NCBI GenBank assembly: GCA_016840385.1
Contig: JAEOSL010000001.1
Location: forward strand, 91,995-155,994
Length of the DNA stretch: 64,000 bases
Direction: 5' to 3'
Source of the DNA: Candidatus Thorarchaeota archaeon
GTDB taxonomy: Archaea > Asgardarchaeota > Thorarchaeia > Thorarchaeales > Thorarchaeaceae
The translations under genes and the position numbers were made by a program. The notes under the pieces are model-generated. The model saw only the letters and a list, made by a program, of their open reading frames with translations. It had not been told where the DNA came from and searched no databases. Below are positions 1 through 44,150 of the stretch, piece after piece. Numbering within the stretch: the first letter of the stretch is position 1; each line of letters starts with the position of its first letter.

Positions 1-884
1 GCTGCAAAATCGACTGTGTCTTTCTTAAAAGTTGGAGTGACAAAGGGGAATCCTGTCTTTGACCACTCTTCAACTTGATCAATGATTAGGGTCTGTGTTC
101 TCAGTCTATCTGGAGATTTGGTTTCCAATAGCTCACGGGTACTCTTTCTTCTCTCACCTTCTTCCAGTGGATTCTCTTCACGAACTTTGTTTCTCAATAC
201 ACGCCGTACTTGTCGACATGCTGAGAGGGCATAATGGTATGATCCATTAGATTTCTTCTGAATGGTATCCTTTACTTTTCGAATGAGGTCTGATGGAATC
301 CGTTTGTTAGTCATAAGTCGCAAAAGCTGCTTTTCATCAGAAGCTAGAATGTTCAAGAGGGAATTGACAAGACTCCGACGAGTATACGTTGCATAGATTA
401 TCCTAGCGGCAGTTTCAAGAGCGTTACGGTATAGTCGCTCATACACAAGCTGGCCAAATTCGTTATCATATTTCCACTTGAGCCGTGATTCTTTTCGGAG
501 AATGTTGTATAACATGCCTCTTGAGTCTTCCAAATCCTTTCCTAAAATATCGAAGTATGATGCATCAGAAAACACTCGTTCTAGAATCAAGTTCACTGCT
601 GCACGATATTTTCTGAAACTCTGAATGATAACAAAGAGATCCAAATTATTACATTTACGACCACTAAGTCTATGGAGCTTATCAAGTTGAAATATGGGAT
701 TTGATGGATTCCTACCCAGTCCTTTTCGAGCTACAGTTCTTGAATACGAATTCAAGGTGAACCTTTGGATAAGAGGTGTCGATGATGGGTAAAAGCGTTT
801 ATCGTCCATTGTTAGTTGCCCTGTTCTTACTGTAGTAAAATCCAGTTGCTCGCGGGGACGACGCCGCGAAGAATCATCCTTCAT
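1..884 (-). CDS. Long TnpB/Cas12-like protein, N-terminal 294 residues (cut by window edge)
   Basis: The frame is open from an ATG at 884 down to base 1, so only the N-terminal part is visible and the catalytic C-terminus lies outside. It can be aligned by eye along its length with residues 1-310 of the 719-aa TnpB-like protein at 14284-16443. Shared features are a basic N-terminus containing RRRPR, a helical region, and a block around GFPFVTP versus GYPFSIP followed by DFA/DFS. I therefore infer that the missing part holds a RuvC nuclease domain and zinc finger. It diverges from the giant RecB-like protein starting at 1092, with about 200 bp of shared upstream DNA containing a palindrome and a TATA-like run. 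Whether its RuvC residues are intact cannot be judged here. Confidence 0.7.
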   Translation of the reverse strand, partial: MKDDSSRRRPREQLDFTTVRTGQLTMDDKRFYPSSTPLIQRFTLNSYSRTVARKGLGRNPSNPIFQLDKLHRLSGRKCNNLDLFVIIQSFRKYRAAVNLILERVFSDASYFDILGKDLEDSRGMLYNILRKESRLKWKYDNEFGQLVYERLYRNALETAARIIYATYTRRSLVNSLLNILASDEKQLLRLMTNKRIPSDLIRKVKDTIQKKSNGSYHYALSACRQVRRVLRNKVREENPLEEGERRKSTRELLETKSPDRLRTQTLIIDQVEEWSKTGFPFVTPTFKKDTVDFA

Positions 885-925
885 CGACACTTCACCAAAT
901 TAGCTATTTCTTTTCAGGGTATATA

Positions 926-1091: not shown

Positions 1092-4000
1092 GTGATGACT
1101 CGCTCGAGAGGACGACCTGTTATTCCGATTCCAGTACATCCAGAGCGAGTGCTATCAAGAGCGATAAAGGCGGGTCTCTCAGTAACGATAGAACTTCAAA
1201 GAAATATCAAGAACAAAACTTCACAGAAATACTATGAACGGTCTCGTGAACGTTGGAGTATAAGACAACAGGTCTATCAGCTCACCAAAGAGCGAGGTGC
1301 TCCTGATTTTTCTCATATAAGTAAAGCAGAACCTCCTACTAGAGATGACGTGAAACTGATGTTCTATGAGAAGGCTGCTGAGTATGGTTTTACAGAAACC
1401 CAGCGACAGAAGAAATTAGCTGATACTGTAGATCCAGTCAACCAGAGATTCAACGCCGGTGGTAGTGTTGTTCGAGAGAATTCCGAGATTATGTTTCCCC
1501 ATCCTGACCCTGAAGACTTTGGAACGTATTCCAGACGTGTAGGGAAGACAAGAAAAAAGTTCAGACGTGCGGGATATGAGGGGTCATCCTTTGGACCAAG
1601 AGTCATCTTAGCTCATCCTGACCTTCCTTCTCTGGATTTTGGAGATGCAATTCGAAGTCATAATGAGTATCTAGCAACCTTCTGTGCTATTCATGATGTT
1701 TCGGTAAGAGAAACTACTCGATATAGCCAGCTCTTCTTCTTGCTCGCACGTCCCTATCTCGAATATTTCTATTCAGAGTTCTCCTGTGGAAAATCTAACT
1801 TTCAGAAAGGAGTGAACTGGGCGCTTCGACAGGTCAAGGAATTGATCCGTGAAGCTGGGTATCAACCTACTATCTATGAGAAGAAGACTGTTACACGTCA
1901 ACTTGAGTTTGAAAAGGGAAACAAACAGAATCGGAACCATGAGAATTGGACTTTCTTCAAAAAAATGGAGGAGGACGCAAGGTCTCTCTATGGTGAGAAG
2001 AGCCCAGCAGTCATGAACATGATGCGGTTACGAGGAGAACTCGGAGAAGGAAAAATCCGACCTCGACAAGAAGTTAGTTCGCTATTTACTATAGATGATG
2101 TAGAACACATCAGGAACAAGATAGCAAGAAAGGCTCGAATTGCTGGGTCTACTATGCACAAGAGAATCGCAGACCTCTTTCCCAGTCCCTGGCACGTGAA
2201 TGACATCATCCTCTCGGGAGATAGGTATACTCGGACATCAGAATACCTTATTCTCACAGAAGTACCCATTGAAACTGAATACGGAGCTGGAAAGATAGAC
2301 CTTCTGCTCTGTGTACGCACAGTCAGTAAGGATGGAAAACAGGTCTTCTGGATGCCTGTCTTCATCCTTGAGATAAAGACTCGATTGGGACAGAGCATGT
2401 ACGTGGATGCAGACCACAAGGAGTCAGAGGTCAGGTCGGAGGCCAATCAGCGAGTTGTTTCAAACTTCCCACTGAGTGACCAGCCGCTCAGCGATGACCG
2501 TTGGAGTGAGATTGTCCAGTCAACGCCTACTAAATCAGCTCGGGAGCAGTTGACTGTCTACAGTCAAGCACTCATAGAGAACTATGCTACAGTAACAGAG
2601 GAGGAACTTGGTCCAATCCTAAGAGGTGTTGTTGCCATCGAGTCTTCTTCGGACATCAATGAGATTCGGTCGATTATTGAGCGGCTCGTCATTCACGGGT
2701 ATGAGAATGTGAAGGACCGAGTGCGAACTATCAAACGAACTGTCTTTACTCCATCACAGGATATCGATTCTCGTATCACGCTGGTCATTGATGAACAACC
2801 AGGACCGAAGAAACCAACAGATGAATCCATTGAGACTCCTTGGAGTCCACCATATTCCCCATTCAAGACCAATAAGAACACAGAGGGAGAGTTTCTCCTC
2901 TATCTTGCAGGTCATTCTCCTACATCTGCTGGACAGTCTGCTGCATGGAATGCTAGATACTACCATGGTCTCCAGATGGTCTATGAGATGAACAAGAAGC
3001 AGAAAGATACCAAGTTTGTCTGGATCGACTTGGCAAGTCAGTTCAATGAACCTCGCCTTGCAGAGGCACGTCTTCGCCTGCGACCTCGTGGATATTCCAA
3101 TGAAGAAACCGCTAAGGTCCAGCCAGATCACATTCGAGAGTTCTTTGAGAGTATTGGAGTCACCGGATATCTGGATGAAATCATGTCCTATCTGTACCAT
3201 GATGGGGCGCTACCGTCCTTCAATTTGAAGACAAGAAAGAGGAAACAGGTTATCATCATCAGTGGTGCAGACACCCTCCGTGATGCAACACCATCATCTC
3301 ATAGAGAGAAGTTCTCTGTGTTGATTGAACACCTGATAAGCAGCTTTCCAGTTGACAGCAAAACTACTATTGTATGGTTTGATTCACCTGTTCCCTCAGT
3401 TGAGAAGTCTATCCCCTACTCCACAAGAGCTCTACTCCCCTATTATGACACGTCACCTCTTGGGACAGTTGTGACTGAGATTATCTGGAATCTCCCAGTA
3501 GCACCAAAAGGTGTGATTCAACCTGACAAATGGAGTCTTCCAACCATTGCCGATGCACCCATGCATGATGACATCAGAGTCATTGTTCGTCATAGTCCAG
3601 ATGAGTTCCACACAGAACTTACCCATGTGCCCTTTCTACAAGGATGGTCAAAACGATTCCGGAATAAAGGGTCTGGACAAGTCGTTCACGAGTACGACAT
3701 AGATGACATAGTTCCTGAGAAGAAGACCCGAAACCGTATGAGGCTTCTCTCCCTGACTCTGCTTCCTTGGCTAGTACGCTTGTGGCCGCAGGAAACTTTG
3801 ACTGGTGATTCTGATGAAACCTTACACGCCCAAGTCAGGCAAGTTGATGAGCAGTACCGTGGTGGGTCTGAGTCACTACCTATTACGAAGACAGTACTAA
3901 CTACCCCACCATGCACCCCACCACGATTGCTAGACCTAGTTAGATTCAAGCTCCCTGCAACCATGAGTGGGTTATCCTATCAAACACTGTCTATGAGTAA

Positions 4001-6083
4001 GATTAACGCCCAGCGGCTCTACAGGTCCCCACGGAAATTGCAGACCAAGCTGCTTCAGAAGGTTTCAGAAGACATAGCTGTGCCGCAAGTAGAAGCACTT
4101 CCTACTGAAGTTGAGGAAGACCAAGACTGGGTGTTCGGTGTCACGTTCCGGAGTGAGGACCAAGACCTACGATCATGGTGGTTGGTGACTCAAGACCCAG
4201 CACATCCCGCAAGAATGCTGGTGGGCTGCTTCACTGGCCGGTCTCCCGACAAGGATGGCTTTCTCTGGGCTGAAACCAGGCACAAGTTAGTGACCCAGGC
4301 CAACTTGGAAGAGATTCTAGGATTTCCCCAGACCATGATGATCGGGAGAACAGCAGGGGATACAATGGAGTACTGGAGTTCTGAAAATGATGATGCACCA
4401 GTCTATTCGGGAACCCTCGAATTCAAGAGCTATGGGCGATTATCTAGAGGACATCTTCGTGCTCTGCGTTCAAGCCTGTCAGAAGAACCGCTTAATGGAC
4501 CTTCACATGACGTACGACCATCAGAGGACTTCTATAGGAGGACAGTAGATGCCCTGAAGAGGCATCTTGCAGCAGTTTCCAGTCCAACCCCAGTCAGTGT
4601 ACACTTGGATATGGACAAGAAAGAGGGAGTGTGCACAGTCCTCTTCAAGAATGAAGACGAGGTCATTCAGGAAGTCACAGTCATATATACTGCGGATCTT
4701 ATCTCAACTCTTAGAAGACCCATGACCAGTGCAGGACCACTATTCACTGATTCGGGAGAGTATGTGACATGGAGTGTCTTCGAGGATATTGAATATGGAG
4801 AGCTTGACTTCATCAGTAATTATATCACCTACACCGCAGCACGAAAGGCTCCAGAGGAACTCCCAAAGAAGCTTGCACAGTTCTTTGAGGAAGCCATAGA
4901 CCTCACTGTGAGTATCTCCCATGATGTATCAGTCTGCCCAATTGTTCAGAGTGAAGAGGAAACGGAACATGGAACCTGTTGGAAGATTGACCTTCCATCA
5001 GAATGTCCAGACCATATCAGGGAACAACTAGGTAGATCCATGACAGGAGAAGAAGTGAATGGTTTCCTTTCCCCCGGGAAGTACTACACTAGTGGAAGAC
5101 TCTATACCTTTGACTTCATTGTGCCCAAGGTCTCTGAACAGGACGAGAGTATTGTCTTTCACGAGGAACGGTATATTCGGATATTCTTACGTAGTCAGAA
5201 CCTGAACTTGAGAAAGCTACCATCGGGGACCTATTTGCTTGTTGAGGAGCAGCAATGGCTAGTGTCCATTGGTTGGGAGGACCAGTATTTCGAGTGGACT
5301 GCTCAGTCTCTTGTGTCAGGACTTCCCTTCAGAGGGAACAACCAGAAGGTTGAACTCACTCACGGAAGGGGAAAAGAAAAAGAGTGTGAGTACCTCATGG
5401 AGGTCATTACCTCCCAGATTCCCTGGAAGCAGATTCAGGACTATTCGAAGGTGCGAGAACAGGTTTTCTCAGGATTGGAGGATCGAGGGTATACTGAAAC
5501 AAGTCCAACGTGCGAGCTTAAGATTATCTCCCAGACAGAGAGTGAGTTTGTATATGGTATCTATCTTACTGCTGAGTTGCAGGATACACTCCTCAGTCAG
5601 TATAGCATTGTGGTAGATGAGCCGATAACAGCAGAAGGTATCATCGATGGTCTTTCACAGAGCTTGACTGAGGGAGATTTGAGGTCCTACAATATTGTGG
5701 GTGAGGAGCGGTTTCTTGCAGAGCTTGAAGCATGGTTACAGAAATACGCACTGGATCCTGAGGGAGGTGATGAATCCCCGGAAGCTTGGACCGTGACGCT
5801 CTCGGTAGAACAGGAGATAGAAGGGATCCAGTGGACAGCTCAACAGGGAAAGAGTGGACCATACAAGAGTGGCACTCTCTGGCTAACCCATGAAGAATTG
5901 TGTCAGCAAGGACAGGAGGCTGCCTGTGAAGAAGTAAGGAGCTTGGTTGAGATAGAGGTGGTCCCACATCTGGAAGAGATAGACGATCTGGATGAGGTGT
6001 TTGACGAACAGATCCCTACTGTGATAGCAGAGATATTTCAACGAACCCGCGAACCTACCGAGTCCGAAGAGCAGCAGCTCTGA
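1092..6083 (+). CDS. Giant RecB-like nuclease protein 1 (1663 aa)
   Basis: No named family is recognised, but it is clearly paralogous to the proteins at 20503-24780 and 38817-44150. Visible order: an N-terminal helical region with the family motif YGFTETQR; a block around LDFGDAIRS; a RecB/Cas4-type PD-(D/E)XK nuclease with GSTMH (H356), D403, E427-I-K429 and QLTVY (Q486, Y490); then a RecA-like segment with a degenerate P-loop (SPTSAGQSA, 609-617, glutamine in place of lysine) and a Walker-B-like strand VIIISGAD (720-727). The long C-terminal half has beta-rich repeats and a block HGTCWKIDL shared with giant 3. The start is GTG at 1092, or ATG at 1095, with purine-rich sequence upstream. 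It diverges from the TnpB-like gene at 884. A DNA-cutting or DNA-processing role is inferred from the motifs; the biological role is unknown. Confidence 0.85.
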   Translation: MMTRSRGRPVIPIPVHPERVLSRAIKAGLSVTIELQRNIKNKTSQKYYERSRERWSIRQQVYQLTKERGAPDFSHISKAEPPTRDDVKLMFYEKAAEYGFTETQRQKKLADTVDPVNQRFNAGGSVVRENSEIMFPHPDPEDFGTYSRRVGKTRKKFRRAGYEGSSFGPRVILAHPDLPSLDFGDAIRSHNEYLATFCAIHDVSVRETTRYSQLFFLLARPYLEYFYSEFSCGKSNFQKGVNWALRQVKELIREAGYQPTIYEKKTVTRQLEFEKGNKQNRNHENWTFFKKMEEDARSLYGEKSPAVMNMMRLRGELGEGKIRPRQEVSSLFTIDDVEHIRNKIARKARIAGSTMHKRIADLFPSPWHVNDIILSGDRYTRTSEYLILTEVPIETEYGAGKIDLLLCVRTVSKDGKQVFWMPVFILEIKTRLGQSMYVDADHKESEVRSEANQRVVSNFPLSDQPLSDDRWSEIVQSTPTKSAREQLTVYSQALIENYATVTEEELGPILRGVVAIESSSDINEIRSIIERLVIHGYENVKDRVRTIKRTVFTPSQDIDSRITLVIDEQPGPKKPTDESIETPWSPPYSPFKTNKNTEGEFLLYLAGHSPTSAGQSAAWNARYYHGLQMVYEMNKKQKDTKFVWIDLASQFNEPRLAEARLRLRPRGYSNEETAKVQPDHIREFFESIGVTGYLDEIMSYLYHDGALPSFNLKTRKRKQVIIISGADTLRDATPSSHREKFSVLIEHLISSFPVDSKTTIVWFDSPVPSVEKSIPYSTRALLPYYDTSPLGTVVTEIIWNLPVAPKGVIQPDKWSLPTIADAPMHDDIRVIVRHSPDEFHTELTHVPFLQGWSKRFRNKGSGQVVHEYDIDDIVPEKKTRNRMRLLSLTLLPWLVRLWPQETLTGDSDETLHAQVRQVDEQYRGGSESLPITKTVLTTPPCTPPRLLDLVRFKLPATMSGLSYQTLSMSKINAQRLYRSPRKLQTKLLQKVSEDIAVPQVEALPTEVEEDQDWVFGVTFRSEDQDLRSWWLVTQDPAHPARMLVGCFTGRSPDKDGFLWAETRHKLVTQANLEEILGFPQTMMIGRTAGDTMEYWSSENDDAPVYSGTLEFKSYGRLSRGHLRALRSSLSEEPLNGPSHDVRPSEDFYRRTVDALKRHLAAVSSPTPVSVHLDMDKKEGVCTVLFKNEDEVIQEVTVIYTADLISTLRRPMTSAGPLFTDSGEYVTWSVFEDIEYGELDFISNYITYTAARKAPEELPKKLAQFFEEAIDLTVSISHDVSVCPIVQSEEETEHGTCWKIDLPSECPDHIREQLGRSMTGEEVNGFLSPGKYYTSGRLYTFDFIVPKVSEQDESIVFHEERYIRIFLRSQNLNLRKLPSGTYLLVEEQQWLVSIGWEDQYFEWTAQSLVSGLPFRGNNQKVELTHGRGKEKECEYLMEVITSQIPWKQIQDYSKVREQVFSGLEDRGYTETSPTCELKIISQTESEFVYGIYLTAELQDTLLSQYSIVVDEPITAEGIIDGLSQSLTEGDLRSYNIVGEERFLAELEAWLQKYALDPEGGDESPEAWTVTLSVEQEIEGIQWTAQQGKSGPYKSGTLWLTHEELCQQGQEAACEEVRSLVEIEVVPHLEEIDDLDEVFDEQIPTVIAEIFQRTREPTESEEQQL

Positions 6084-10519: not shown

Positions 10520-10547
10520 AACCAAACGTGAAAAACGAACGACTTGA

Positions 10548-12933: not shown

Positions 12934-12934
12934 G

Positions 12935-13306
12935 GTGAAAAAAGTGGGAATGATATCAAAACTTATTGGAGTTGCATTGGCAGTAGGTGGATTCTTTATA
13001 CTATTCATAGGAATAAATGATCCAACAATAATGTCCTACGTGTATTCGTTCTTGGGCTTAATCGTAATGTCAATAGGATTTGCACTATTGACTGCAGGAA
13101 GATCAAAAGAAGTGAAACCTCCACCACCGACAGTAACAGAAATCAGATGCAAAGATTGTGATTTCAAGGAGATTCGTGATTTCAAGAAAGGAGATTACAT
13201 TCTCAAATCTGTCGAGGATGCATGCCCCAAATGTCAGACAACAGGAATGACAATTGAAGGTGTATACATCATTAGAGAAGAACCTGAAGAAAAATACAAT
13301 ATCTAA
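12935..13306 (+). CDS. Two-helix membrane protein with zinc ribbon
   Basis: The start is GTG at 12935, 1 bp after the DUF1512 stop (a longer overlapping frame from 12905 is unlikely). Two membrane helices near residues 5-50 precede a cytosolic ribbon with CKDCDF and CPKCQTTG. About 123 aa. The tight spacing suggests it works with DUF1512. The gene overlaps the end of the convergent map gene by 4 bp. Function unknown. Confidence 0.8.
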   Translation: MKKVGMISKLIGVALAVGGFFILFIGINDPTIMSYVYSFLGLIVMSIGFALLTAGRSKEVKPPPPTVTEIRCKDCDFKEIRDFKKGDYILKSVEDACPKCQTTGMTIEGVYIIREEPEEKYNI

Positions 13307-14202
13307 GTTCGTTCGGTTAGAACGACTGGACCATCTTCCGAGATGAAAATCGTGTGCTCGGCCTGACTAACAGGTCGAGTCTTCTTCTCTATCTGCATTG
13401 GAAAACCAAGAATTACCTTTTCATTTATGAGCTCTCTAATTTCACTAACTACATCAATATCCTTGTTTGCCGTACCAATCCATCGAGATGCGTAGGGTAA
13501 AGGACCATATTGCTCACGTAGGTATTTTCTCAATTTCTCAGTTGTTCCTTCTAGAGTCTTCTCCAGACCTGTATTTGCAAAAATATAGACATATTCACTA
13601 TCAATCACTGTTCCTATACCACTGGTGGCAAAGGGCTCAATTGCGTAGTATTCTCCAATCTCAACAATGGGAGTTCCTCGTTTCTTAACATTGGGAACTT
13701 GTTTTCCAGCATGTAGATTGTAGCGTTTGAGACTGTGACCTGATAAGTTAGAGATTGGTCGAAGACCATAATCTTTGATAACTCTCTCAATAGTTGCACC
13801 AATTTCTCCTAGACTGATACCTGGAGTAATAATACTGATAGCTTCAGAGAGTGCATCTTCTGTAGCTGCTACAAATCCCTCAAGAGTTCCGTCAATATCA
13901 ACAGTCAATGCAGTATCAGCTATGTAACCATCTACATGAACACCAATATCCAGTTTGACCAGTCCAAATTCAGGGACTTCACTCTTGTCACCTTTCGGAG
14001 ATGTGCTATGTGCAGCAATATGATTGATTGAAACATTACAGGGAAATGCAGGAATTCCTCCATACTCTCTAATTTTCTTCTCAGCTGTTGAACAGATCTT
14101 GATAATACTGGCTTCTGGTTCAATCATTTCACTGATTTCTTCGAGTATTTTCGCGGCTATTTTGCCGGATTTAATAGCTGCAGGATTAGGATTGGCAACC
14201 AC
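13303..14202 (-). CDS. map: Methionine aminopeptidase, type II (copy 1)
   Basis: A 299-aa protein with the pita-bread fold and metal ligands: KLDIGVHVDGYIADTA (two Asp), SGHSLKRYNLHAG (His), YAIEPFAT (Glu) and QAEHTIF (Glu). It removes the N-terminal methionine from nascent proteins. An equally well-conserved paralog lies at 25235-26152 in the same orientation, about 45% alike by eye. The 11-kb accessory block 2 lies between the two copies. Confidence 0.95.
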   Translation of the reverse strand: MVANPNPAAIKSGKIAAKILEEISEMIEPEASIIKICSTAEKKIREYGGIPAFPCNVSINHIAAHSTSPKGDKSEVPEFGLVKLDIGVHVDGYIADTALTVDIDGTLEGFVAATEDALSEAISIITPGISLGEIGATIERVIKDYGLRPISNLSGHSLKRYNLHAGKQVPNVKKRGTPIVEIGEYYAIEPFATSGIGTVIDSEYVYIFANTGLEKTLEGTTEKLRKYLREQYGPLPYASRWIGTANKDIDVVSEIRELINEKVILGFPMQIEKKTRPVSQAEHTIFISEDGPVVLTERT

Positions 14203-14283
14203 AGTAACACCTTACACGAGATGAATCTTAGTTGCTCTTAAGCGGTTCCATGCCGTTGATTGTAATATAGATAAACCTAGACA

Positions 14284-16443
14284 TTATGTCAAAGTTGTCT
14301 GCCCAACAACGACACTGGGCTTGAATGATTTTACATCAATAATGTTTCTTGCGGCATTGACATCCGCATGGAGTGAACTTCCACAGCTCTCACAGTGAAA
14401 ATACTCTCCTCCCTTCTTCTCGTCAGTAGATCCCTTCGACTCCACACGCACACCCTTTTCCCCACAGACATGACACTTCTGAGAGGTCCAAGCAGGGCTT
14501 ACGGTCCATACTCCTCCTCTCTTATGTCCAAGACTCTGACGCATGTAGACTACAGTGTCAAAGATCTTTGACCAGAGATTTGAGCTTAATCTCCAAGACA
14601 GCGTTCCCCAACCAGCTGGGGGCGTGTAGGCCTTCAGATTCTCAAAATTTAGAGTCTTGACCTCATACTCTTCACAGAACCACACAGTCTGACTTGCTAC
14701 CTGTCTGGCAATCTCTCTGTCCAGTCTACCGACCTTCCTCCATATCGCGGATAGATGTCTGTCTTTCTTGAGGAGATGCCCGGGATAACTTCTGTCTGTG
14801 TGCTTTCGTTCCCAGTTGTTGCGCATCCGCCTCACGTTGGAAGTAAGTCCTCGTGTTTGGTTTCTCAGGTAATCCCTCTTGGAAATCAACTTGTCAAAGG
14901 AGACCATCTCGTCTACAAATCCTCCATTACCATCACGTACAGAAAGGACGATTGGTACTCGAACTCCACGGTCAGCTCCTGCTCTCCTTTTATAGGTCCG
15001 AGGTCCAAGTTCTTCATCAGCCATTTCTTTCGTTGGTGGTAGGAATGGTATCTGTAGGGTTACTCTATTATCTCTTAAGAGAAGACGGGGTGGTCCACAC
15101 TTGCGGGATTTTCTAAGCTTGGCTATCTTCACTTGCAGTTCATTTACCTTATCAGTATCCTTCTCCTTTCGATTCTTAAGTCGGGAATACTGATAGGTTG
15201 CATGTTGTAGTTCAATCGTGTTCATGAGTTGGGTGTGCATATCCTCGAACTTGCGAGCTCTGAACTTCAGCTTCTTTGCTCGATGATACTTACCTTCTTT
15301 CTCCGCGACATCAGCTTTCACTCTGTCCTTCACGACAGATTTAGGCAACCAGTCTAGGAATCTAAAGGAAAGGGTCTTTGTCTTGTAGGGCGACCCTTCT
15401 ACTTCTTTTCCTTCAATGGGTTCAGGAAGTTTCAGGAAGAATAGGACCTCATCCTCCTTTTCCTTATCTACTGAGTACCAGTAACCTTGACCTGGGTCGT
15501 TCTCGTTGCTTGCTGAGAAATCCTCTGTATGGGACTGCATCTTAGGAATCGAAAATGGATATCCCACAGATACGAATCCATGAAGAAGGCCATCCACTGA
15601 AGCTAATACCTCAACAGACTCAGACGAATCCTTGAGATATCTACTTACTCTCTTTCTCTGATATTTTCTGAAACTAAGAGGTTCTCCACGTTCAGTGAGG
15701 ATGTGTTCGTCCAGTTTCTTTCTCAATTGCTTCAAGACCGAAATTGTATGGTAATAACCGGTCCCATTGTTCTTTGTGCTCTCGCAGTTGGCACGTACTT
15801 CCTTGATCAGCTTTGAGAAAATGTATTTGTTCTTCAGCAACCTAACAAGAGCTTCTCTATCCTCACTCACATACTCAATTGCACTCTTCATGAGTTGTCT
15901 TCGTAACCAATTTGAATGAATGACCCTGGCTACTTGTTCAAGCACATTCCTATACATTCTTTCAAAGCATTGGACTTGGATATCCTTATTGTCCTTATAG
16001 GATAGATATCCTTCCTTCATCAAGAGATGATATCCATGCCCCCTATAGGAATTCAATTCCTCTCCAAGATTCTCAACTCGTCCTTTGTCTGAATAAACTC
16101 TACTAAGAACAAGATTGACCAGCTCCACATATTTCTCAAAATACATTCCCATCAATGAGAGGTCTGTGTCAATGACCTTTCGGCCAGTCACAGTTTGAAT
16201 TCTTTCCTGCACGACCTCAGTATTTGCTCTTCTATATCGAGGGTCGGGTCGATAGCCTTTACCTTTCTTATTCACTTCTCTATCCAATGAGCAGAGTGTG
16301 AATGATTCGACAAGGTATTTCAGTCCTGTTTTCTGGGGCGTTGTTGATGAAATACTATAATAGTTGTCGACCATTTTCTGTTGTTCAGAGGCCTTTGGCT
16401 TCTTACACGAGCGGGGACGACGCCGCTTTTCCTTTTTCATCAA
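14284..16443 (-). CDS. tnpB: Long TnpB/Cas12-like RuvC nuclease (719 aa)
   Basis: The C-terminal part has all the RuvC features of TnpB: D491 (GADRGV), E601 (LNFENL), zinc finger C657/C660/C684/C687 and D694 (HADVNAARN). TnpB is an RNA-guided DNA nuclease, so activity is plausible. The protein is much longer than usual TnpB (about 400 aa): some 480 residues precede RuvC-I, approaching compact Cas12 size. The N-terminus matches the partial protein at 1-884. It is the last gene of block 2 on the minus strand, 81 bp upstream of map copy 1. No Y1 transposase is nearby; an IS607 recombinase fragment sits at the other end of the block. A guide RNA from the 3' end is possible but not seen. Confidence 0.9.
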   Translation of the reverse strand: MMKKEKRRRPRSCKKPKASEQQKMVDNYYSISSTTPQKTGLKYLVESFTLCSLDREVNKKGKGYRPDPRYRRANTEVVQERIQTVTGRKVIDTDLSLMGMYFEKYVELVNLVLSRVYSDKGRVENLGEELNSYRGHGYHLLMKEGYLSYKDNKDIQVQCFERMYRNVLEQVARVIHSNWLRRQLMKSAIEYVSEDREALVRLLKNKYIFSKLIKEVRANCESTKNNGTGYYHTISVLKQLRKKLDEHILTERGEPLSFRKYQRKRVSRYLKDSSESVEVLASVDGLLHGFVSVGYPFSIPKMQSHTEDFSASNENDPGQGYWYSVDKEKEDEVLFFLKLPEPIEGKEVEGSPYKTKTLSFRFLDWLPKSVVKDRVKADVAEKEGKYHRAKKLKFRARKFEDMHTQLMNTIELQHATYQYSRLKNRKEKDTDKVNELQVKIAKLRKSRKCGPPRLLLRDNRVTLQIPFLPPTKEMADEELGPRTYKRRAGADRGVRVPIVLSVRDGNGGFVDEMVSFDKLISKRDYLRNQTRGLTSNVRRMRNNWERKHTDRSYPGHLLKKDRHLSAIWRKVGRLDREIARQVASQTVWFCEEYEVKTLNFENLKAYTPPAGWGTLSWRLSSNLWSKIFDTVVYMRQSLGHKRGGVWTVSPAWTSQKCHVCGEKGVRVESKGSTDEKKGGEYFHCESCGSSLHADVNAARNIIDVKSFKPSVVVGQTTLT

Positions 16444-16830: not shown

Positions 16831-17487
16831 GTGAATTCCACCTTAATGAAAGGAAATCAAGAGAAGAAAGGAATTATGTTTGAGTCAGTCTGGGATCTCA
16901 AGCATGATCATAGGACAATAACTTTTGTGTCGGGATTTCTTGTCACGCGATTTGGAAAGGAACCACTGGTACCATCTGAGGTCCCTGATAGGCACAAACG
17001 GCTTATTCGCAATATGGGAGTAATGGTGTTTAGAACTAAACCGTTCAGGGGACTAAAGCTATACCCACCCTTATTTGACAATACTCTTGTAATTGCAGAA
17101 AGAAGAATTGGCGAGAAGGAATCCAGATTATTCACAAATGAACAGGACGCTGAATTATGGAAACTCCAAACAGACAATGCTGATTTTTCAACACGAAGAA
17201 TTACACCAAAAAAAGCGAAGTATTTGTTTGAATCAAAGGTAACAACCCCCCATGTCATTCGTTCAGCCCAAGAGAACAGTCTTTCGATTAGATATGAATA
17301 TGTCAGATTGATAGAACAGGTAATCACAGGACTTGCAGCCATAGAACAATTCTTAGCTATGAATGAACGGGGTTTGAATCAAAAGTTGCTTGATCATATC
17401 TGGAAAACTGCTATTGGAACTGAACCACCTTTGGATACCGATTCTGTAATGAATAAAATTAGTGAGTTATTGGATACCCGATCCTAG
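16831..17487 (+). CDS. Unknown 218-aa protein of block 2
   Basis: No family is recognised. It is mixed alpha/beta, soluble, with no catalytic motif visible. The listed start is GTG 16831; ATG 16846 is an alternative, and the frame remains open and protein-like upstream to 16750. It is the only plus-strand gene inside block 2 and faces the TGTAC palindromes, so a regulatory role is conceivable but unsupported. It is convergent with the 330-aa nuclease gene. Confidence 0.65.
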   Translation: MNSTLMKGNQEKKGIMFESVWDLKHDHRTITFVSGFLVTRFGKEPLVPSEVPDRHKRLIRNMGVMVFRTKPFRGLKLYPPLFDNTLVIAERRIGEKESRLFTNEQDAELWKLQTDNADFSTRRITPKKAKYLFESKVTTPHVIRSAQENSLSIRYEYVRLIEQVITGLAAIEQFLAMNERGLNQKLLDHIWKTAIGTEPPLDTDSVMNKISELLDTRS

Positions 17488-24948: not shown

Positions 24949-25231
24949 TTACTTAGCCCTATGAGCAGCAGCTCGTAAGCCGTAGACCCGACCTGAAAAG
25001 GAAGATATCAATGACAGGAGGTCAGTGACAAGTTCTTCCTGGGGGCTCTGCTTCTCAGGTTGATAGAGTATCTCAAGTCTAATGACATAGTCATTGAGGA
25101 TGCGTTCCAGGAGCTCCAGACCAAAGCGTGCAAGTCTATCCTTGTGAGTGATGAGGAGTGTATGAATAGACCCGTTCTTTGCAAGAGTAAAGAGTTTGGC
25201 AAGCCCCCGTCGCCGCATATTGAGTCCATGC
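24949..25231 (-). pseudogene. tnpA: IS607-type serine recombinase (TnpA) fragment
   Basis: The frame gives the C-terminal part of an IS607-family resolvase: SGHGLNMRRRGL, then THKDRLARFG, then EELVTDLLSLISSFSGR and YGLRAA. These blocks are typical of the family. The N-terminal MerR-like DNA-binding domain and the catalytic serine region are missing, and the fragment begins within 5 bp of the map copy 2 stop codon. It is therefore a truncated, inactive remnant. IS607 elements carry tnpA upstream of tnpB on the same strand, as here, but with 8 kb of extra genes between. Confidence 0.8.
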
Positions 25232-25234
25232 CCG

Positions 25235-36359: not shown

Positions 36360-36743
36360 TTGCCATTCAAACTTGTCATTTCAGACCCCGAAACTGGAAA
36401 AGCCATCCAGTACGAACTAGACGATGTTAAGACCAACGCACTTGTTGGTAAGCAAGTTGGGGAAATTGTTGAAGGAGATGCTTTAGGCCTACCAGGATAC
36501 AAGCTTAAGATTACTGGTGGAAGTGACGCATCTGGTTTTCCAATTCGCCCAGATGTGCACGGTAGCGGAAAGAAACGCATTCTAATCCGTGGACCCCCAG
36601 GATTCAGATCCGACAGAAAAGGTACTGCCAGACGTAAAACTGTCCGTGGAAGAGAACTTGACTCAGCCATATCGCAAGTTAACATGCGAGTGGAAGAGAA
36701 AGGTGGTACACCTCTCGAAGAACTTGTTATGAAGGCTGCATAA
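36360..36743 (+). CDS. rps6e: Ribosomal protein eS6
   Basis: A 127-aa protein of archaeal eS6 length. It has the opening FKLVISDPETGKA, a central GGSDASGFP, and RGPPGFRSDRKG followed by basic RRKTVRGREL. Small-subunit protein. The start is TTG 36360. It lies directly before block 3, whose TnpB gene is convergent 135 bp away. In many archaea eS6 sits next to aIF2-gamma, which here is 11 kb further on, so block 3 and the metalloprotease group separate the usual pair. Confidence 0.96.
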   Translation: MPFKLVISDPETGKAIQYELDDVKTNALVGKQVGEIVEGDALGLPGYKLKITGGSDASGFPIRPDVHGSGKKRILIRGPPGFRSDRKGTARRKTVRGRELDSAISQVNMRVEEKGGTPLEELVMKAA

Positions 36744-36877
36744 TAACCTAAATCCTACACTTTGGTGAGTGAACCTCAACTGTAAGAAATTTCTATGTTC
36801 CACCCTTCCCCTGCCAGTGTCACCACCATCCAGCATTTTCTCGAAAATGCTAAACTTAGCAAGAGCTTTGTCAACGT

Positions 36878-38566
36878 TCATTGGGATGGAATCCCTCCTG
36901 AAGACCTGGCTTCCTTCTCCTGTTTTGATACTAGAACATCACTTCCAGCAACAGCGAGCGTTTCCACAGTTCTTTCCACGGCGGGGTCATTATCACTCTC
37001 ACTAGTTGCATCACTGAAACTAGCAAGGTCCGATTGGACAAAGTGAACAGCCGCGGACTCTCCAGAACCTGATGTTAGTTCCTTCTTGGAGAGTAAGGAC
37101 TTCCCTTTGGAAGAAGACTTCTTCTTTCGGGCTTTCAGTCGCGCACGTCGTTTGGTTGTTCCACGAACAACCGCTCTAGTCCACAAACCTAGTCCTCTCA
37201 CAGAGTGCAGTGACTTTGTGAGCGTAAGCATGCGTGCTGCGATGTTGGCACTACCATTTAGATCAGCATTGATACTGTAGCCACAGGATGGGCAGTGGAA
37301 GTAGTTCTGTTTAGGCCTTGTACCCTTGCTTCCACACTTCCAACATATGATTGAGGTCCATCCTTCAGGAACAGCTCGGAATCGAGTGTTTTTTCCCTCG
37401 ACCTTCCAACCTAGCTGAGCAAGTCCATGTTTCAGACTGTCAGTTATTCGAGCAAAGGCCCAAGAATGTATCATTCCTCGAAACCTTCGCCCCTGGTAGT
37501 TTCCTTTCTTCGCACGCATTCGTATATTTTTCAGGCGACCAATGGCAATATAGAGTGTGAATTTCTTGGATAATTCGGAGATGTAATCGAGAAGTTGACG
37601 GACAAGGACTCTATCGTACTCCTTAGCTACATTCTCTCGCTTGGAACGCATTCGACGGAGTTTCTCTGCAACCCTGTCAGATGGTAGTCCATTATTTCTC
37701 CGGGTGTACGTTTCTCTCTGGAGATCAGCAACAAGTCTATCGTACTTCTTGATGGCTCTGACCTTCTCTCTCTGGACAAAGTAACAGGTTTCTCTTGTCT
37801 TCTCAGGAGTGAGAAGAGTAGAACAAGCTGCCTTCTCTATCCCAAGGTCAATTCCAAGAATAGCAACAGGAAGATTCTCCTCCGGAGATTCATCAATTGA
37901 AACCCTGACAGCAATGGTCATCCACCACTTCGTCTTTTTGTCTGTGAAGAGCTGCACTGCCTTCACTTCACCCTTCCTGATTTGATTCAGATGATATGGA
38001 GATATTTTGAGAGGAATGGTCAATCGATCATGACGGGTTCTCCCATCTCTTACTGTGTCAAGAGCATCTCTGATATCTAGCCACCAGTGAGATATAGAGG
38101 TCACTTTCTCCACGAGTTTGAATCTCTGAGAGAAGACCCATCGGGGTATCCTTCGGCTGCCATTGATTGATGTGGGACGTGATGCATTCCACCCTCTCTT
38201 ATTCTTCAACTTGAGATAGCTTTCATAGAGTGCAACAGCTGTTTTTCGACACTCTGTCATTTCATTTTGAGAGATACGAGAAAATCTGACCTTGAAATCA
38301 TGAGGGACAGTCAATCTCTGACTACACCCTGATTTGACCTTGAGTGCTGTCATAGTCAGTTGGTCTAGATTTCCATCATCAATTCTATCTCTGTTCTTAC
38401 CTGTTAGCAACTTATTCTCATGTTGTTCAATTATTCCAAGAAATGCACGGATTACTCTAGTGTCTCGTCCGACAGTTTGCCTAAGCCGCTGCTTAGTTCT
38501 CTCGGTCATAGCATCCCAATTGATTGGGACCTTTACCGAGATTGTCACACCCTTGGAACGAGCCAT
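36878..38566 (-). CDS. tnpB: TnpB-family RuvC nuclease with relocated catalytic Glu (562 aa)
   Basis: RuvC-I D240 (GIDLGIE), zinc finger C408/C411/C425/C428 and RuvC-III D435 (NADLNGSAN) are present. The usual RuvC-II Glu is replaced by Gly343 (AIGRLKN), but a Glu lies just before the zinc finger (PEGWTSIICWKCG, E401). This matches the rearranged active site known in Fanzor and some TnpB proteins, so it may still be active. A Ser/Lys-rich tail of about 120 aa follows. It diverges from giant 3 (start 38817) across 250 bp. It is less similar to the 719-aa protein than that is to the partial one at 1-884. Confidence 0.9.
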   Translation of the reverse strand: MARSKGVTISVKVPINWDAMTERTKQRLRQTVGRDTRVIRAFLGIIEQHENKLLTGKNRDRIDDGNLDQLTMTALKVKSGCSQRLTVPHDFKVRFSRISQNEMTECRKTAVALYESYLKLKNKRGWNASRPTSINGSRRIPRWVFSQRFKLVEKVTSISHWWLDIRDALDTVRDGRTRHDRLTIPLKISPYHLNQIRKGEVKAVQLFTDKKTKWWMTIAVRVSIDESPEENLPVAILGIDLGIEKAACSTLLTPEKTRETCYFVQREKVRAIKKYDRLVADLQRETYTRRNNGLPSDRVAEKLRRMRSKRENVAKEYDRVLVRQLLDYISELSKKFTLYIAIGRLKNIRMRAKKGNYQGRRFRGMIHSWAFARITDSLKHGLAQLGWKVEGKNTRFRAVPEGWTSIICWKCGSKGTRPKQNYFHCPSCGYSINADLNGSANIAARMLTLTKSLHSVRGLGLWTRAVVRGTTKRRARLKARKKKSSSKGKSLLSKKELTSGSGESAAVHFVQSDLASFSDATSESDNDPAVERTVETLAVAGSDVLVSKQEKEARSSGGIPSQ

Positions 38567-38816
38567 TATCTTTCGCCTTCAGTATATAAATCTCTGACCC
38601 ATTTCTTATGGTCAGTTGAGTTCACTCCCATCATTGTTTCCAAGGTTGGTTATGTACTCGTACAATATCTCTGTAAAATAGTATATAAATCTATTAAGAC
38701 TGCAAAGTAAAAATAGTACAAAATTGCAGTTTACTTGATTATATACTGATAAATGATGTATTTCATAATGTCGAATTACCCGAAGAATTTATTATATTAA
38801 TTACCGATATCATGAT
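38567..38816. promoter_or_regulatory. Divergent promoter region of tnpB and giant 3
   Basis: AT-rich, with two TATATAAAT boxes (near 38583 and 38692) suited to the two directions. The palindrome TGTAC-TC-GTACA at 38653-38664 lies between them and follows TATG, as the palindromes at 16650-16692 do. This suggests that one regulator controls both loci. Confidence 0.55.
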
Positions 38817-41800
38817 GTGACAAATATCCTGTATCCAAGAAATCCTGCTAGAATCCTTACAACTGCCTTCAAAATGGGAATGGCAATCACTCTAGCACTA
38901 GCACGGGATAGGGCCACAGGTAAGGCAAGACCACTATACTTTGGACAGGGAAATAGGATCAAAGGGATGGCAAGAGTCTGGAGTTCCGCAAAAGAAGAAT
39001 ATCATCAGACAGTAGAGGAGGGTCGTCCTGATGCATCAAAACTACTCAAGGCGGAAACCAATGTTCGACGTAGTTTTACTAGGATTCAGTTAAAGACATC
39101 TGTAAAATATGGCAACACGGAAACAAAACGAGTGAAACGAGAAGAGGGAAACAAAAAGTATCTCAATAATCTCTGGGACTATTCTGGAAGCAGATTACGT
39201 GATATCACAAAAAGCAGATTCAACTTTCCAAAGCCTGTATCGGTTGAGATGGATGATGGAACAGAGATTGATGGATATCATGGATCCTCGAAGATACCGT
39301 TCTATCCTGTCCGGCACAATCACATTCCAGAACTTGATTTTGCAGATATGATTAGAAGCCCACTGATGGAGCTTGCAAGACAGTGTCTGAAGTATGGAGT
39401 ACCATTAAAGGATGCCAAGAAGTATATCGATGCGCTACTCCTTAGACTCATCCCCTTCATGGATTATGTCTACACAGGGAAAAGGTCAGGTCGACCTAAC
39501 TATGTCCGAGATGGACTCAAAGAATTAAGAATCGTTGTAGACCAATTAAAGAACGAGTATGGAACAAGGAATGGCCAACGTCAGTCAATTACATCAGAGG
39601 TCATTGAATCTGTTACGTATGAAACTCCTTCAGAGGTTGACTGGATTCCTGAGGAAGTTGTTGAAGTCCCAGAAGAGAAATCGGGAAAGGAAACAGAGGA
39701 TGATCATATATTACAAGAGGTTATCACTAAGGCTAAGAAGGACGGGGCAGTTCTAGATGACCCTCTTCAGTATCTAGAAACTTTGCTGAAGAATGGAACT
39801 CTAGACATTGAAGACTCACTGGAACTCTTGAGAGAGTATCAGGAGCAAAGCAGAAGATTGGGTGTTAAAGTTCATAGATTTGTAAGCAAGAACTTTCAGA
39901 GTCCCTTCAGCTTCAATGGAGTTGTCTATCACGGGACTGAGATGGCATATGATAATAGTGGGCTCGTCCTACTCTCAGAGGTTCCGGTTGATAGTGGGAG
40001 AGGACGTATCGATTTCGTTCTTGCTCGTGCAAGGCAACTGGCGCGAGTTGATGGTGCACCTTCAGTCGTATTATGTGAACCCTTCATGATTGTTGATTTG
40101 AAGACAAAGAACGCCTTCGACTTTGATATGTACGGGACTGAGTCACGCACTACAGATAAAAAGAAAATAGTTCGAGAGTTTGTCTTAGAACACAGGGAAT
40201 TAACTCCCGATGAGTGGGAGTGTGTCCTCTCAAACACTCCAGAGGATTATGAAAAAGAGCAGCTGGATGCATATGAGAAGGAGACTCTCGCAGACTACAA
40301 GAATATAATGTGGAAAGATGATGATTCTCAGAAGAGCCTTGTAAAAGCTGTGTTAGTCGTTGACTCACACCAGAGCTGGAAAGACATTAGTGAAGCAATA
40401 CTTCCTCTGGTCTTGAAGGCATACAACAAATGTATTGATGGTACAATATCCGAGGGGGATTTTCTCATCCCTTCTGATGGGGATAAGGACCTCAAAATTG
40501 CCATGAAACTGCTCTCAGTCACCAGACCTACCACTGAAACTGAAGAATTGGATATTCCTATTCCTCTGAAACCATTTGAGAAACGGGTTGAGGATGAGAA
40601 AGAGTTTGTTCTCTATCTCACTGTTCCAGGAAGAGGTTCTCCCTCTCAGTCTGCAGCATCCATCGCAGAAAGATGGTACGGTCTAGAATATGTACATAGT
40701 CTTGCACGAAGACGACATCGTGATGTGTTCTGGCTTGATCTAGTTGGTGAATACGTCGACCCCGTTCTGAGAAAGAAGCAGTTCAGGTCGAAGTTCCAAA
40801 AGAACTCTATCAAACGGTTCTTCAGAGATAGGGTTCAGATGAGGAACCTCTCTGACCAAGTGCGTGAATATATCTATGAAGGAGCACCCATTAGCTCTCT
40901 TAGAATATGGATACAGAATTTGCTCAGAGATTGTCAGAACCCTATCATTGTGGTTTCAGGATGGGAATCTCTCCGGAGAAGTACACCAAATTCACATCAA
41001 ATGTATCTTGATGAGATTGTGGCAACCATCTTACAAACAATCCCGGTCAAGAGTACAACTATGTGGTTCGCGCGACCTGTGCCTATTGCACAGAGCAGTA
41101 TTACCTATTCGACAAGGTGTGTTGCTCCTTTCTATCAAGGGTCACTGTGGCAGAACATTGTAGACACAATAATCTGGAACGTCACCATGCCACCTAACCG
41201 GTCCGGAGCAAGAATATCTACGAATTACCATGAACGTGGTATTCTCATAGAGCAACCTGATAAACCACTTGAATGGAAGATAGTTGAGATTGAGCCATTG
41301 CGAGGTTGGGGACAGGACTTTCAATCAGGTGGGCGAAAGATACCTGAGGCCTATTACAGAGGTGGGAGAGCAGTTATTCAACAGAGCAGTTGGCATATGG
41401 AGAAACAACTGAAAAGAACATTGGAGATCATCCCGCATTTGCTACCTCATCACGAGTACAATCCAGAACCAAAATCGAACTTTGATCTTGATATTGAGAA
41501 AGTACCAGCAGAGTACGGTGAGTCACAAGAGTCAAGACCAAGACTGACGTTCATGCCTACTCAGGTCCGTACAGAGAAGGAGGATGAAGATGGGCGGGTC
41601 AAGCCTCTGCAACCGATAGCTGACATCAATCGAAGAAGAGAATGTAGACAGATGAAGCTTAGTGTTCCATCACAACAACGGACCACGCGCCCTCCCTCAG
41701 AGTATTATCTATCCCCAAAGGAGATAGACTACCACAAGCTCGCCCTCACTGAGATTCGACACCTGAAAAGCACAATCATGTTCTTGAAGCGAGCGGAAAA

Positions 41801-44150
41801 AAGTCACTTGAAGGAACTCCTTAGTCAGATATCAGAGGTACTCGAAATAATCGATGAATCAAACTATGCAGGGGATACGAAATCCCTCATGAATCGGCTT
41901 CGACTCATTCGTCAGATCTTGGAAACCAACGCTTTGAGCAAGCAGGTCTGGGCCCAGTTACTTCCTTCTCGCTCTACTATTTCAGGAAACCTTTCGAGAA
42001 CCCAGAGAAACCATATCACTGCTATTCAGAACCGGCACCCAGACATTCTCTTGATTACAGGAAATCACCTCTTCTTCCTGATTCTTGCAGCTCTTGGTCC
42101 TAATCCTGTGGTAGCATATACAGGGTCGCTGGCTGCATTGTGGGACTATGTGTTGCCATGGCACCTCATTGGTCTAGGATTAAAACCAGTATATCCTAAG
42201 AGCCACATTACTGGGAGATCAGTATTTGATAGACACAGGCTCTTGAAGCGATTGCATCATCGGATAGTAGAACGAAACAAGTCTATTGACCTGCAGGCAT
42301 CTTTGACCAATGTTCGATTTGGACGACTGATAGATCTGCCCTCTTCGGGAGCTGCTAACTCTACCTATCTCTGGTTGCTATTCCAACGAACTCCAGGGAC
42401 CAATGACATGAATGCAGCTCTCTTGAATCCAAGGGGTATCGATCCATTACTCCCGATTGTTGATACTCTCCGCGAGATGATCTCGAAGGGGACCTATTGG
42501 AGTGAGAGTGACCTGAACCTTCTGAGTTGGTACGCTAGATTACAGGGTGATGAAATCAAATTACGAATAATGGTTGCAGACCAGCACGGAGAGCAGGTCC
42601 TCTGGATAGATGACAAGAAACGTAGAAGATGGATGCCCATTGGGAACATCCACTATACGACTAGACGATTTGAGGATGTGACTCTGGTGCGCACTATAAC
42701 CCTCTCTGCAAATCCGCATCTTCAGTCCATTGAATATGATGATGTTCGGCGTCCAATTCATAGATTAGAGGACATGGTCACTAGAGCGACGTTCATTCTA
42801 AACAAGGGACTAGAGGGAAGCATATCTGTTACCTGTAGGGTAACGCTTGATACTAAAAATGAGATGTACAGGGTCATCTTTACTGACAAGAGATCTGAGG
42901 AGATGATAGGGGAGCTTCTGATCAAAAAAACAGCTGATCTATTGGAAGTCCTCAGACGCCCTGACAGCGAATGTGAATCGGTTTTGGTCAATGGACACAA
43001 ATTGATCTGGAACAGGTTCAAAGATATCTCATACGATGATGATGTTGCAATACTCAGACCGTGGGTAAATAGGCATAATCCCTTTCCAAAGATGAGCCTG
43101 AAGATACCGCCTACAGCAAGGGACCTGCTACATGCTACCAAGGAGTTTGATATTACCATAGAGATGTATCACGATTCATGGACCTGCCCCTTGAAACATA
43201 TCTCACTAGAGGATATACAGAAGAGTCATCGCTCAGCCCAAACCAATAAGCATCACTTCCTCTTTGGATTTAGGAGTTCACTTGGAGAGCCCATACACGT
43301 CAGTAATGAGCCGGGATTGCACCATGGGTCATGTTGGAGGGCTCATGTTGATTCTCCACACACCCTCACACCTGAACTTAGGGAGCTCATGGAGGTCCGA
43401 CTCACTGATTCCCAAGCACGATCTCTCTTGGGTTCTCAGGAACTAGCCTATTGGTCAAAGGAAGGGCAAAAATGGGTGACCCACACTTTCAATCTAGTGG
43501 TCAGAAAGGACTGCATTGAAGAAGTGAAGGAGTCCTGGCAGCTCCGCACGATGCTGGCGGAGTTAGGGCAAAAGTTTGACCCAAGACTTCCCGGATTGTA
43601 TCTACAAAGCCCTGACAGGTGGACCCCGTACATCACTATCGAGCCAGAATGTGTGATAATCGGACTGAGAGAGAAGGACACCAGACAGATTAGAGAAAAG
43701 AAAGTTTCTAAGCGAAATGTTGCATTGTTGTACAGATATGAAGTACAAGAGATTCTAGAGCAAGAGATGAAGAGGTTTCTGAAAGAGAGAGGAATAGTGA
43801 CAAACAGGAGATTGACAGCAGAGATCCAGAGAGAGATAACAGACTCGATTAAGATGTCTGGAGTGGAGGAGGACAAGGCATCCGTAGAGTTTGATGGTGC
43901 AACTGTTGAGCAAGACTCAACAGGTGGACAAATCGTCTATATGGTTTTGACCTCAGAGATTGAAATCCATAAGATTCCTGTTACTGGGCACCTGCATGAT
44001 ATCAGGCAATTTGGACGTGTTAAGAGGGAGGATTTTGTGAGTAATGTTAGAAACCTCCTTGATGTGTTCAATCTCAGCGATGAGGACAGGGATAGGGCTG
44101 TAAAAGAGTGTGTCAGAGTAATGAGAGAAGAGAAACTCATCACAAGATGA
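38817..44150 (+). CDS. Giant RecB-like nuclease protein 3 (1777 aa)
   Basis: The largest of the three paralogs. Family motifs in order: YGNTETKR; LDFADMIRS; nuclease motifs LGVKVH (H353), D399, D427-L-K429 and QLDAY (Q482, Y486); a RecA-like segment with degenerate P-loop GRGSPSQS (605-612, Gln in place of Lys) and Walker-B-like IIVVSGWES (710-718); then a long C-terminal half with the VRFG strand shared with giant 2 and the HGSCWRAHV block shared with giant 1. An acidic insert around 265-310 is specific to this copy. The start is GTG 38817. No RadA-like gene adjoins it. A nuclease is predicted; the role is unknown. Confidence 0.87.
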   Translation: MTNILYPRNPARILTTAFKMGMAITLALARDRATGKARPLYFGQGNRIKGMARVWSSAKEEYHQTVEEGRPDASKLLKAETNVRRSFTRIQLKTSVKYGNTETKRVKREEGNKKYLNNLWDYSGSRLRDITKSRFNFPKPVSVEMDDGTEIDGYHGSSKIPFYPVRHNHIPELDFADMIRSPLMELARQCLKYGVPLKDAKKYIDALLLRLIPFMDYVYTGKRSGRPNYVRDGLKELRIVVDQLKNEYGTRNGQRQSITSEVIESVTYETPSEVDWIPEEVVEVPEEKSGKETEDDHILQEVITKAKKDGAVLDDPLQYLETLLKNGTLDIEDSLELLREYQEQSRRLGVKVHRFVSKNFQSPFSFNGVVYHGTEMAYDNSGLVLLSEVPVDSGRGRIDFVLARARQLARVDGAPSVVLCEPFMIVDLKTKNAFDFDMYGTESRTTDKKKIVREFVLEHRELTPDEWECVLSNTPEDYEKEQLDAYEKETLADYKNIMWKDDDSQKSLVKAVLVVDSHQSWKDISEAILPLVLKAYNKCIDGTISEGDFLIPSDGDKDLKIAMKLLSVTRPTTETEELDIPIPLKPFEKRVEDEKEFVLYLTVPGRGSPSQSAASIAERWYGLEYVHSLARRRHRDVFWLDLVGEYVDPVLRKKQFRSKFQKNSIKRFFRDRVQMRNLSDQVREYIYEGAPISSLRIWIQNLLRDCQNPIIVVSGWESLRRSTPNSHQMYLDEIVATILQTIPVKSTTMWFARPVPIAQSSITYSTRCVAPFYQGSLWQNIVDTIIWNVTMPPNRSGARISTNYHERGILIEQPDKPLEWKIVEIEPLRGWGQDFQSGGRKIPEAYYRGGRAVIQQSSWHMEKQLKRTLEIIPHLLPHHEYNPEPKSNFDLDIEKVPAEYGESQESRPRLTFMPTQVRTEKEDEDGRVKPLQPIADINRRRECRQMKLSVPSQQRTTRPPSEYYLSPKEIDYHKLALTEIRHLKSTIMFLKRAEKSHLKELLSQISEVLEIIDESNYAGDTKSLMNRLRLIRQILETNALSKQVWAQLLPSRSTISGNLSRTQRNHITAIQNRHPDILLITGNHLFFLILAALGPNPVVAYTGSLAALWDYVLPWHLIGLGLKPVYPKSHITGRSVFDRHRLLKRLHHRIVERNKSIDLQASLTNVRFGRLIDLPSSGAANSTYLWLLFQRTPGTNDMNAALLNPRGIDPLLPIVDTLREMISKGTYWSESDLNLLSWYARLQGDEIKLRIMVADQHGEQVLWIDDKKRRRWMPIGNIHYTTRRFEDVTLVRTITLSANPHLQSIEYDDVRRPIHRLEDMVTRATFILNKGLEGSISVTCRVTLDTKNEMYRVIFTDKRSEEMIGELLIKKTADLLEVLRRPDSECESVLVNGHKLIWNRFKDISYDDDVAILRPWVNRHNPFPKMSLKIPPTARDLLHATKEFDITIEMYHDSWTCPLKHISLEDIQKSHRSAQTNKHHFLFGFRSSLGEPIHVSNEPGLHHGSCWRAHVDSPHTLTPELRELMEVRLTDSQARSLLGSQELAYWSKEGQKWVTHTFNLVVRKDCIEEVKESWQLRTMLAELGQKFDPRLPGLYLQSPDRWTPYITIEPECVIIGLREKDTRQIREKKVSKRNVALLYRYEVQEILEQEMKRFLKERGIVTNRRLTAEIQREITDSIKMSGVEEDKASVEFDGATVEQDSTGGQIVYMVLTSEIEIHKIPVTGHLHDIRQFGRVKREDFVSNVRNLLDVFNLSDEDRDRAVKECVRVMREEKLITR

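Follow-up and report, generated by a model that had tools for sequence, protein, structure and literature searches.

Giant RecB-like proteins as near-constant partners of TnpB in Thorarchaeota, likely forming a novel type of RNA-guided mobile element

We analyzed a stretch of 64,000 nucleotides (hereafter, the window) from a Candidatus Thorarchaeota archaeon (assembly GCA_016840385.1, contig JAEOSL010000001.1, positions 91,995 to 155,994), in which three loci (blocks 1 to 3) each carry a gene for a giant RecB-like protein together with a TnpB-like gene. The window is part of a chromosomal contig of a Thorarchaeote, with eIF2-gamma, RPB7, S24e, an eRF1-like gene and RNase HII among its genes. 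TnpB elements have been known to occur alone or together with small transposases. A pair of TnpB and a giant protein was described in none of the titles and abstract openings listed in searches of an open-access library, in which no paper combined TnpB with Thorarchaeota. The open reading frames for giant 1 (1663 aa; 1092..6083, plus strand, divergent from its TnpB gene), giant 2 (1425 aa; 20503..24780, minus strand) and giant 3 (1777 aa; 38817..44150, plus strand) were found where the original prediction, made from the letters alone, had placed them. The three proteins, for which only shared motifs had been claimed, proved to be true homologs in blastp comparisons (E = 1.35e-75, 2.87e-70 and 6.2e-105), in which stretches of about 900 to 1300 residues aligned at about 25% identity.

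The TnpB-like genes of the three loci were recognized by matches to the Pfam domain TNB or by sequence identity, and they fall into two families (T1 and T3), not into the single kind that had been assumed. Block 2 has a T1 TnpB of 719 aa (14284..16443, minus strand; TNB, E = 1.3e-13), and block 3 has a T3 TnpB of 562 aa (36878..38566, minus strand; TNB, E = 1.1e-12), which is separated from the divergent giant 3 gene by an intergenic region at 38567..38816. The gene in block 1 (3..890, minus strand) encodes the N-terminal part of a T1-family protein, of which the remainder lies beyond the window edge; its product is 31% identical to that of 14284-16443 over 307 aligned positions and 70 to 72% identical to those of two other loci (L052 and L017; loci and genomes are numbered with L and G, respectively), and the TNB match is missing because the window cuts the gene. 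The stated distance of 8 kb in block 2 holds from the start of the giant gene; the TnpB gene follows on the same strand, about 4 kb past the 3' end of the giant gene. This gene order recurs in L064 (about 2 kb between giant and TnpB) and L118 (about 3 kb).

A profile built from the three giants matched 66 proteins, and all 12 of those with an organism name came from Thorarchaeota, as did all 18 giant loci in the GTDB genome collection. Of the phylum's 227 genomes, 35 had giant matches in a scan that scored no more than two candidates per genome; full scoring gave 1 to 29 giant-matching stretches per genome. The giants are about 1.4 to 2.0 kaa in length (longest open frame of the family, 1964 aa) and are under purifying selection. 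Pfam, NCBIfam and PADLOC gave no credible family for them. The description 'RecB-like' was right by motif: nucleases of the RecB/Cas4 family have the motifs GxxD, (D/E)xK and QxxxY, and the corresponding residues D399, D/E427, K429, Q482 and Y486 are complete in 121/121 rows (near-copies included). In giant 3 this PD-(D/E)XK motif lies within aa ~325-560 (39789..40496; D399, D427-x-K429, Q482-xxx-Y486) and is followed by a RecA/Rad51/KaiC fold without the Walker A lysine (aa 591-871; 40587..41429), whose two best matches belong to RAD51-paralog complexes. The N-terminal domain (aa 4-224; 38826..39488) is tentatively Cas1-like, since its fold and its catalytic pattern, with (near-)invariant E80, N117, H167, D174, D177 and R180, are in line with Cas1, although the sequence statistics are weak and the relation is not significant by sequence. 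CRISPR Cas1 itself was rare, with a match above the Pfam cut-off in 4 of the 19 genomes checked. In nine genomes (G188, G189, G190, G191, G201, G202, G217, G219 and G220), open frames of about 400-600 aa matched the giant profile solely in its C-terminal region (about 1150-1720), and represent either a stand-alone family or decayed giants.

To examine the pairing, we mapped the giant matches and TNB-domain matches on the contigs of 35 Asgard genomes, and counted the 102 merged giant loci having the N-terminus. A divergent TnpB gene was located within 3 kb of 73 of these giants, and a TnpB within 10 kb of 74, well over the half of loci by which the original prediction of a constant partner was to be judged. 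The distance from the giant to the upstream TNB domain is about 1.4 to 1.8 kb with a T3 partner, apart from a few T3 cases of 2.35 to 2.55 kb, and about 2.1 to 2.3 kb with a T1 partner. When 19 of the 29 giants without such a neighbor were re-examined, eight had the 5' part of a TnpB gene severed by the contig end, seven were relatives of giant 2, and the remaining four comprised two at contig ends, one fragment and one degenerate copy (9.4 kb upstream, TnpB absent). These relatives of giant 2 group together as a clade of five rows, and their T1 TnpB, where seen, is downstream on the same strand (the window, L064 and L118). Viewed from the other gene, a giant was found within 5 kb of 72 of the 121 TnpB-like genes of 500-800 aa, versus one of the 60 canonical TnpBs, and several mid-contig solo TnpBs of both T1 and T3 have no giant. 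The giant is thus a near-constant partner of TnpB. That the giants are ordinary host genes, alongside which TnpB elements inserted by chance, might be suggested by the giant orthologs of about 80% identity in several metagenome-assembled genomes; such a coincidence is, however, extremely improbable, as an arithmetic estimate from 265 TNB matches in about 106 Mb gives only about 0.4 divergent neighbors within 3 kb for the 102 loci, against the 73 seen.

The two TnpB families that serve the giants, T1 of about 720 aa and T3 of about 560 aa, share the four cysteines of the zinc ribbon (CxxC...CxxC). The RuvC triad of T1 (D491/E601/D694) was found in each of the 13 complete rows (one further row is truncated), and is intact together with the zinc ribbon in the block 2 protein; that of T3 (D240/E401/D435) was found in 28/28 rows. 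In all of these T3 rows the usual position of the RuvC glutamate is occupied by glycine, and an invariant glutamate is found instead seven positions before the first zinc-ribbon cysteine (ExxxxxxC; E401 in block 3), whereas RuvC1 reads DLG, not DPG. A quick tree of 56 giants indicated that the partner had changed between T1 and T3 at least eight times, as forced by well-supported branches. Consistent with this exchange, the T3 TnpBs of L011/L050, L012, L013 and L016 are 74 to 81% identical to that of the window, but the giants beside them share just 25 to 27% identity with giant 3. The maintenance of the arrangement despite the exchange of the TnpB kind argues for a shared function.

Few flanking genes were common to different copies, and comparison with relatives revealed empty sites at four loci. 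In block 2, the tandem M24 peptidase genes of the host (13303..14202 and 25235..26152, both on the minus strand), which are about 70 bp apart in relatives, lie 11 kb apart in the window. In block 3, positions 36743 and ~47904 adjoin in ten other genomes and are 110 bp apart in G189; the insert (36744-47878) has the 8-bp direct repeat CTGCATAA at both sides (36736..36743 and 47879..47886, positions counted from the sequence). This insert is composite, with the DNA beyond giant 3 (44151..47878) containing a 762-aa gene and a minus-strand relic of a giant gene (47716-47881). In L057 (G002), a T3 TnpB and a giant are inserted between genes read as ftsZ and uL2, and in L055 (G001), a T1 TnpB and a giant are located at the 3' end of a gene read as DNA glycosylase; the sequences on both sides adjoin in 11/11 fetched relatives in each case, and the last ~60 bp of the glycosylase-like gene are duplicated at both sides of the L055 element. 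At least two of the three window loci (blocks 2 and 3) are therefore DNA insertions, and the empty sites in relatives indicate that the elements are mobile, as had been proposed as one of two possibilities; the other, a defence device, gained no support, as PADLOC had no match for the three giants. The empty sites also contradict the coincidence considered above, because the giant is inside the inserted DNA at all four. In addition, G001 and G224 have element ends of the T3 type (L098 and L106) on the opposite side of the M50 peptidase gene, so that this neighborhood was hit repeatedly; the M50 peptidase of the window is 83 to 90% identical to the versions of G001, G004, G212 and G206.

Direct repeats of 8 to ~60 bp surround six copies. 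Repeats exceeding those seen in comparisons between loci (P < 0.01) were found in 4 of the 21 T3 loci (L078, L072, L082 and L075) and 1 of the 14 T1 loci (L055); three of the four in T3 loci read as tRNA sequence, and tRNA-Gly adjoins L078 and L082. The statement that TnpB normally occurs with TnpA or alone can be refined, since some T1 elements carry an IS607-type TnpA, intact or decayed: frames of 204-230 aa are present in L052, L064, L070 and L084 (L084: NF033518, E = 8.8e-54), L061 has a frame shortened to 177 aa, and remnants are left in L066, L073, L083, L055 and the window. The last of these (24955..25233, minus strand), a serine recombinase remnant with 84% identity over 93 aa to the intact TnpA of L064, forms the end of block 2 opposite the scaffold described below. 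IS607 TnpA was not found in the other T1 loci, and the T3 loci had no TnpA match at 1e-4, a search which a divergent TnpA could escape. In L112 and L113, a T1 TnpB without a giant is directly beside an IS607 TnpA frame, a layout presumed to be the ancestral form of T1 elements.

Behind the T3 stop codon there is a conserved RNA-like scaffold with a sharp end (in block 3, 36744..36877, minus strand, covarying and ending in GGTTA). Covariation was strong in the T3 alignment: 93.0% of cells were paired, whereas shuffling gave 76.3 ± 1.0% and sliding the structure less than 50%, and 15 of the 21 pairs had both partners changed, a count that averaged 11.0 in 500 shuffles and was reached in one of them. 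An equivalent scaffold of T1 terminates in ACAATNAACGG, with weaker evidence for structure (6/12 pairs with double changes, without a shuffled control); in block 2 it occupies 14253..14352 (minus strand) and ends in ACAATCAACGG. Beyond these ends the sequence is unrelated among most loci. A scaffold followed by a locus-specific flank is the layout of a predicted omegaRNA, in which the flank would serve as the guide. An Rfam scan of the window named no RNA of this type. The predicted block 2 guide (14233..14252, minus strand), the first 20 nt past the scaffold end, is found unbroken in four relatives (G206, G001, G004 and G212), at their empty site.

Taken together, the giant and TnpB likely constitute a mobile element of a new, RNA-guided kind. 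For its mechanism, we give about even chances to a scheme, drawn from the sequences, in which TnpB with the omegaRNA, using the insertion-site flank as guide, would cleave the element-free site, and the giant, with its tentatively Cas1-like, RecB/Cas4-type nuclease and Rad51-like domains, would process the DNA ends and then join or copy the element at the cut site. In T1 elements an IS607-type TnpA was presumably the first mover, often decaying while the giant stays, and in T3 elements the giant would take the place of TnpA. Such an integrase role is favored by the direct repeats, by giants that persist where TnpA has decayed and by T3 loci in which no TnpA was detected. The more specific reading of the giant as a fusion of a Cas1-like integrase, a Cas4-like nuclease and a Rad51-like protein, which replaced the transposase of TnpB elements in a CRISPR-less transposon, is possible but doubtful.

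A role in recombination (homing) is favored instead by the Rad51-like domain of the giant and by the additional RadA gene that block 2 carries. In RNA-guided homing, IS607 TnpA (in cis or in trans) would move the element, TnpB would cut the empty allele, and the giant, as a factor resembling RecBCD and Rad51 paralogs, would resect the break and channel it into copying from the occupied allele. The joining of a RecB-type nuclease motif to a Rad51-paralog-like fold, the separate RadA-like gene added in group-2 loci, the identity of the block 2 guide with the target at the empty site, the persistence of the pairing through changes of TnpB family and the existence of solo TnpBs all fit homing. However, homing alone leaves the arrival of T3 elements at new sites without TnpA, and the direct repeats, unexplained, and makes no use of the invariant E/H/D domain. 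We consider it rather unlikely. Less probable still is that the giant is cargo useful to the host, namely a protein for defence or for competition between elements: the purifying selection, the many copies in some genomes and the restriction-endonuclease-like neighbor in block 2 would suit cargo, but the giants have no PADLOC match, and cargo should vary, whereas the giant is a nearly constant, head-to-head partner.

Among the closest known systems are IS607 transposons, whose TnpA (a serine recombinase with a MerR-type helix-turn-helix) is shared by several T1 elements. IS607 inserts at GG cores according to excerpts of PMC10711439, and in block 2 the scaffold end and the left flank both finish in GG, as such cores would. 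At its scaffold end, block 2 fits GG-core insertion without target duplication, its other end being decayed; L055 does not fit, as its ~60-bp duplication breaks the no-duplication rule. T1 elements differ further in the giant between TnpA and TnpB; TnpA is decayed or not found in other T1 loci, and none was found in T3 loci. Casposons, the transposons with a Cas1 integrase, insert at tRNA genes with direct repeats (excerpts of PMC9939771), and resemble the giant elements in the tentative Cas1-like domain, the Cas4-type nuclease motif and some tRNA-gene insertions with direct repeats; unlike casposons, the giant elements carry TnpB and a guide-RNA scaffold, their repeat length varies, and no family B DNA polymerase (PolB) domain, a casposon feature, was found in the scanned open reading frames of the window blocks. 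The relocated RuvC glutamate of T3 is the Ealt pattern known, in the same excerpts of PMC10711439, in Fanzors and a TnpB clade, whereas T3 proteins have DLG in place of the RuvC1 DPG of Fanzors and pro-Fanzors, are archaeal and have a giant partner. Aloposons of Heimdallarchaea, to which a relation had been raised, are likewise Asgard mobile elements with unusually large proteins and tRNA-site integration, as in some copies here. The relation was not supported when the descriptions were compared, as aloposons are described in excerpts of PMC8813620 with giants arranged in tandem, 3,000 to 6,000 aa long, and with a MinD/ParA-like gene, in contrast to the single smaller giant with TnpB in our elements, and no ParA domain was found in the scanned open reading frames of the window. 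RecBCD/AddAB and Rad51 paralogs have the same nuclease motif and fold, which the giant unites in a single protein encoded by a mobile element. We class the T1 elements as derived from IS607, and the group as a whole as a new variant of TnpB elements.

Between giant 2 and its TnpB, block 2 contains the RadA/Rad51-like ATPase gene right after the giant (19522..20502, minus strand; kept in L064, L065, L066 and L067), a gene without assigned function (18631..19383, minus strand), the restriction-endonuclease-like gene (17567..18559, minus strand; PF22558) and a conserved small gene (16831..17487, plus strand; also in L064 and L066). The 762-aa protein of the block 3 insertion (45278-47566, minus strand) was read as secreted, with a metalloprotease-like motif HEYGHH and no Pfam match. 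Elsewhere in the window, Rfam identified a 136-nt tRNA (7878-8013, minus strand), probably intron-containing, although ARAGORN reported no tRNA in the window, and a 5S rRNA (10546-10665, plus strand). A HerA-like ATPase gene (58668-61406) overlaps a 761-aa gene without assigned function (together 56396-61406, minus strand), and the two may act as a pair in DNA processing or defence.

That a partner as large as about 2,000 residues persisted while TnpB was exchanged at least eight times points to a hitherto unrecognized step in transposition or homing guided by RNA. Should the giant prove to be an integrase of the Cas1/Cas4 type, the assumed union of casposon-type integrases with TnpB would become testable. 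TnpB is a relative of Cas12, and the fused Cas1/Cas4/Rad51 reading, if true, would unite the enzymes of the adaptation type (Cas1 and Cas4) with the ancestor-type of Cas12 and a guide RNA, and would be a present-day equivalent of the meeting of casposon and TnpB from which type V CRISPR-Cas has been proposed to originate. Thorarchaeota belong to the Asgard archaea, which are related to eukaryotes, and TnpBs with the relocated glutamate, the active-site type of Fanzors, are present in many of their loci.

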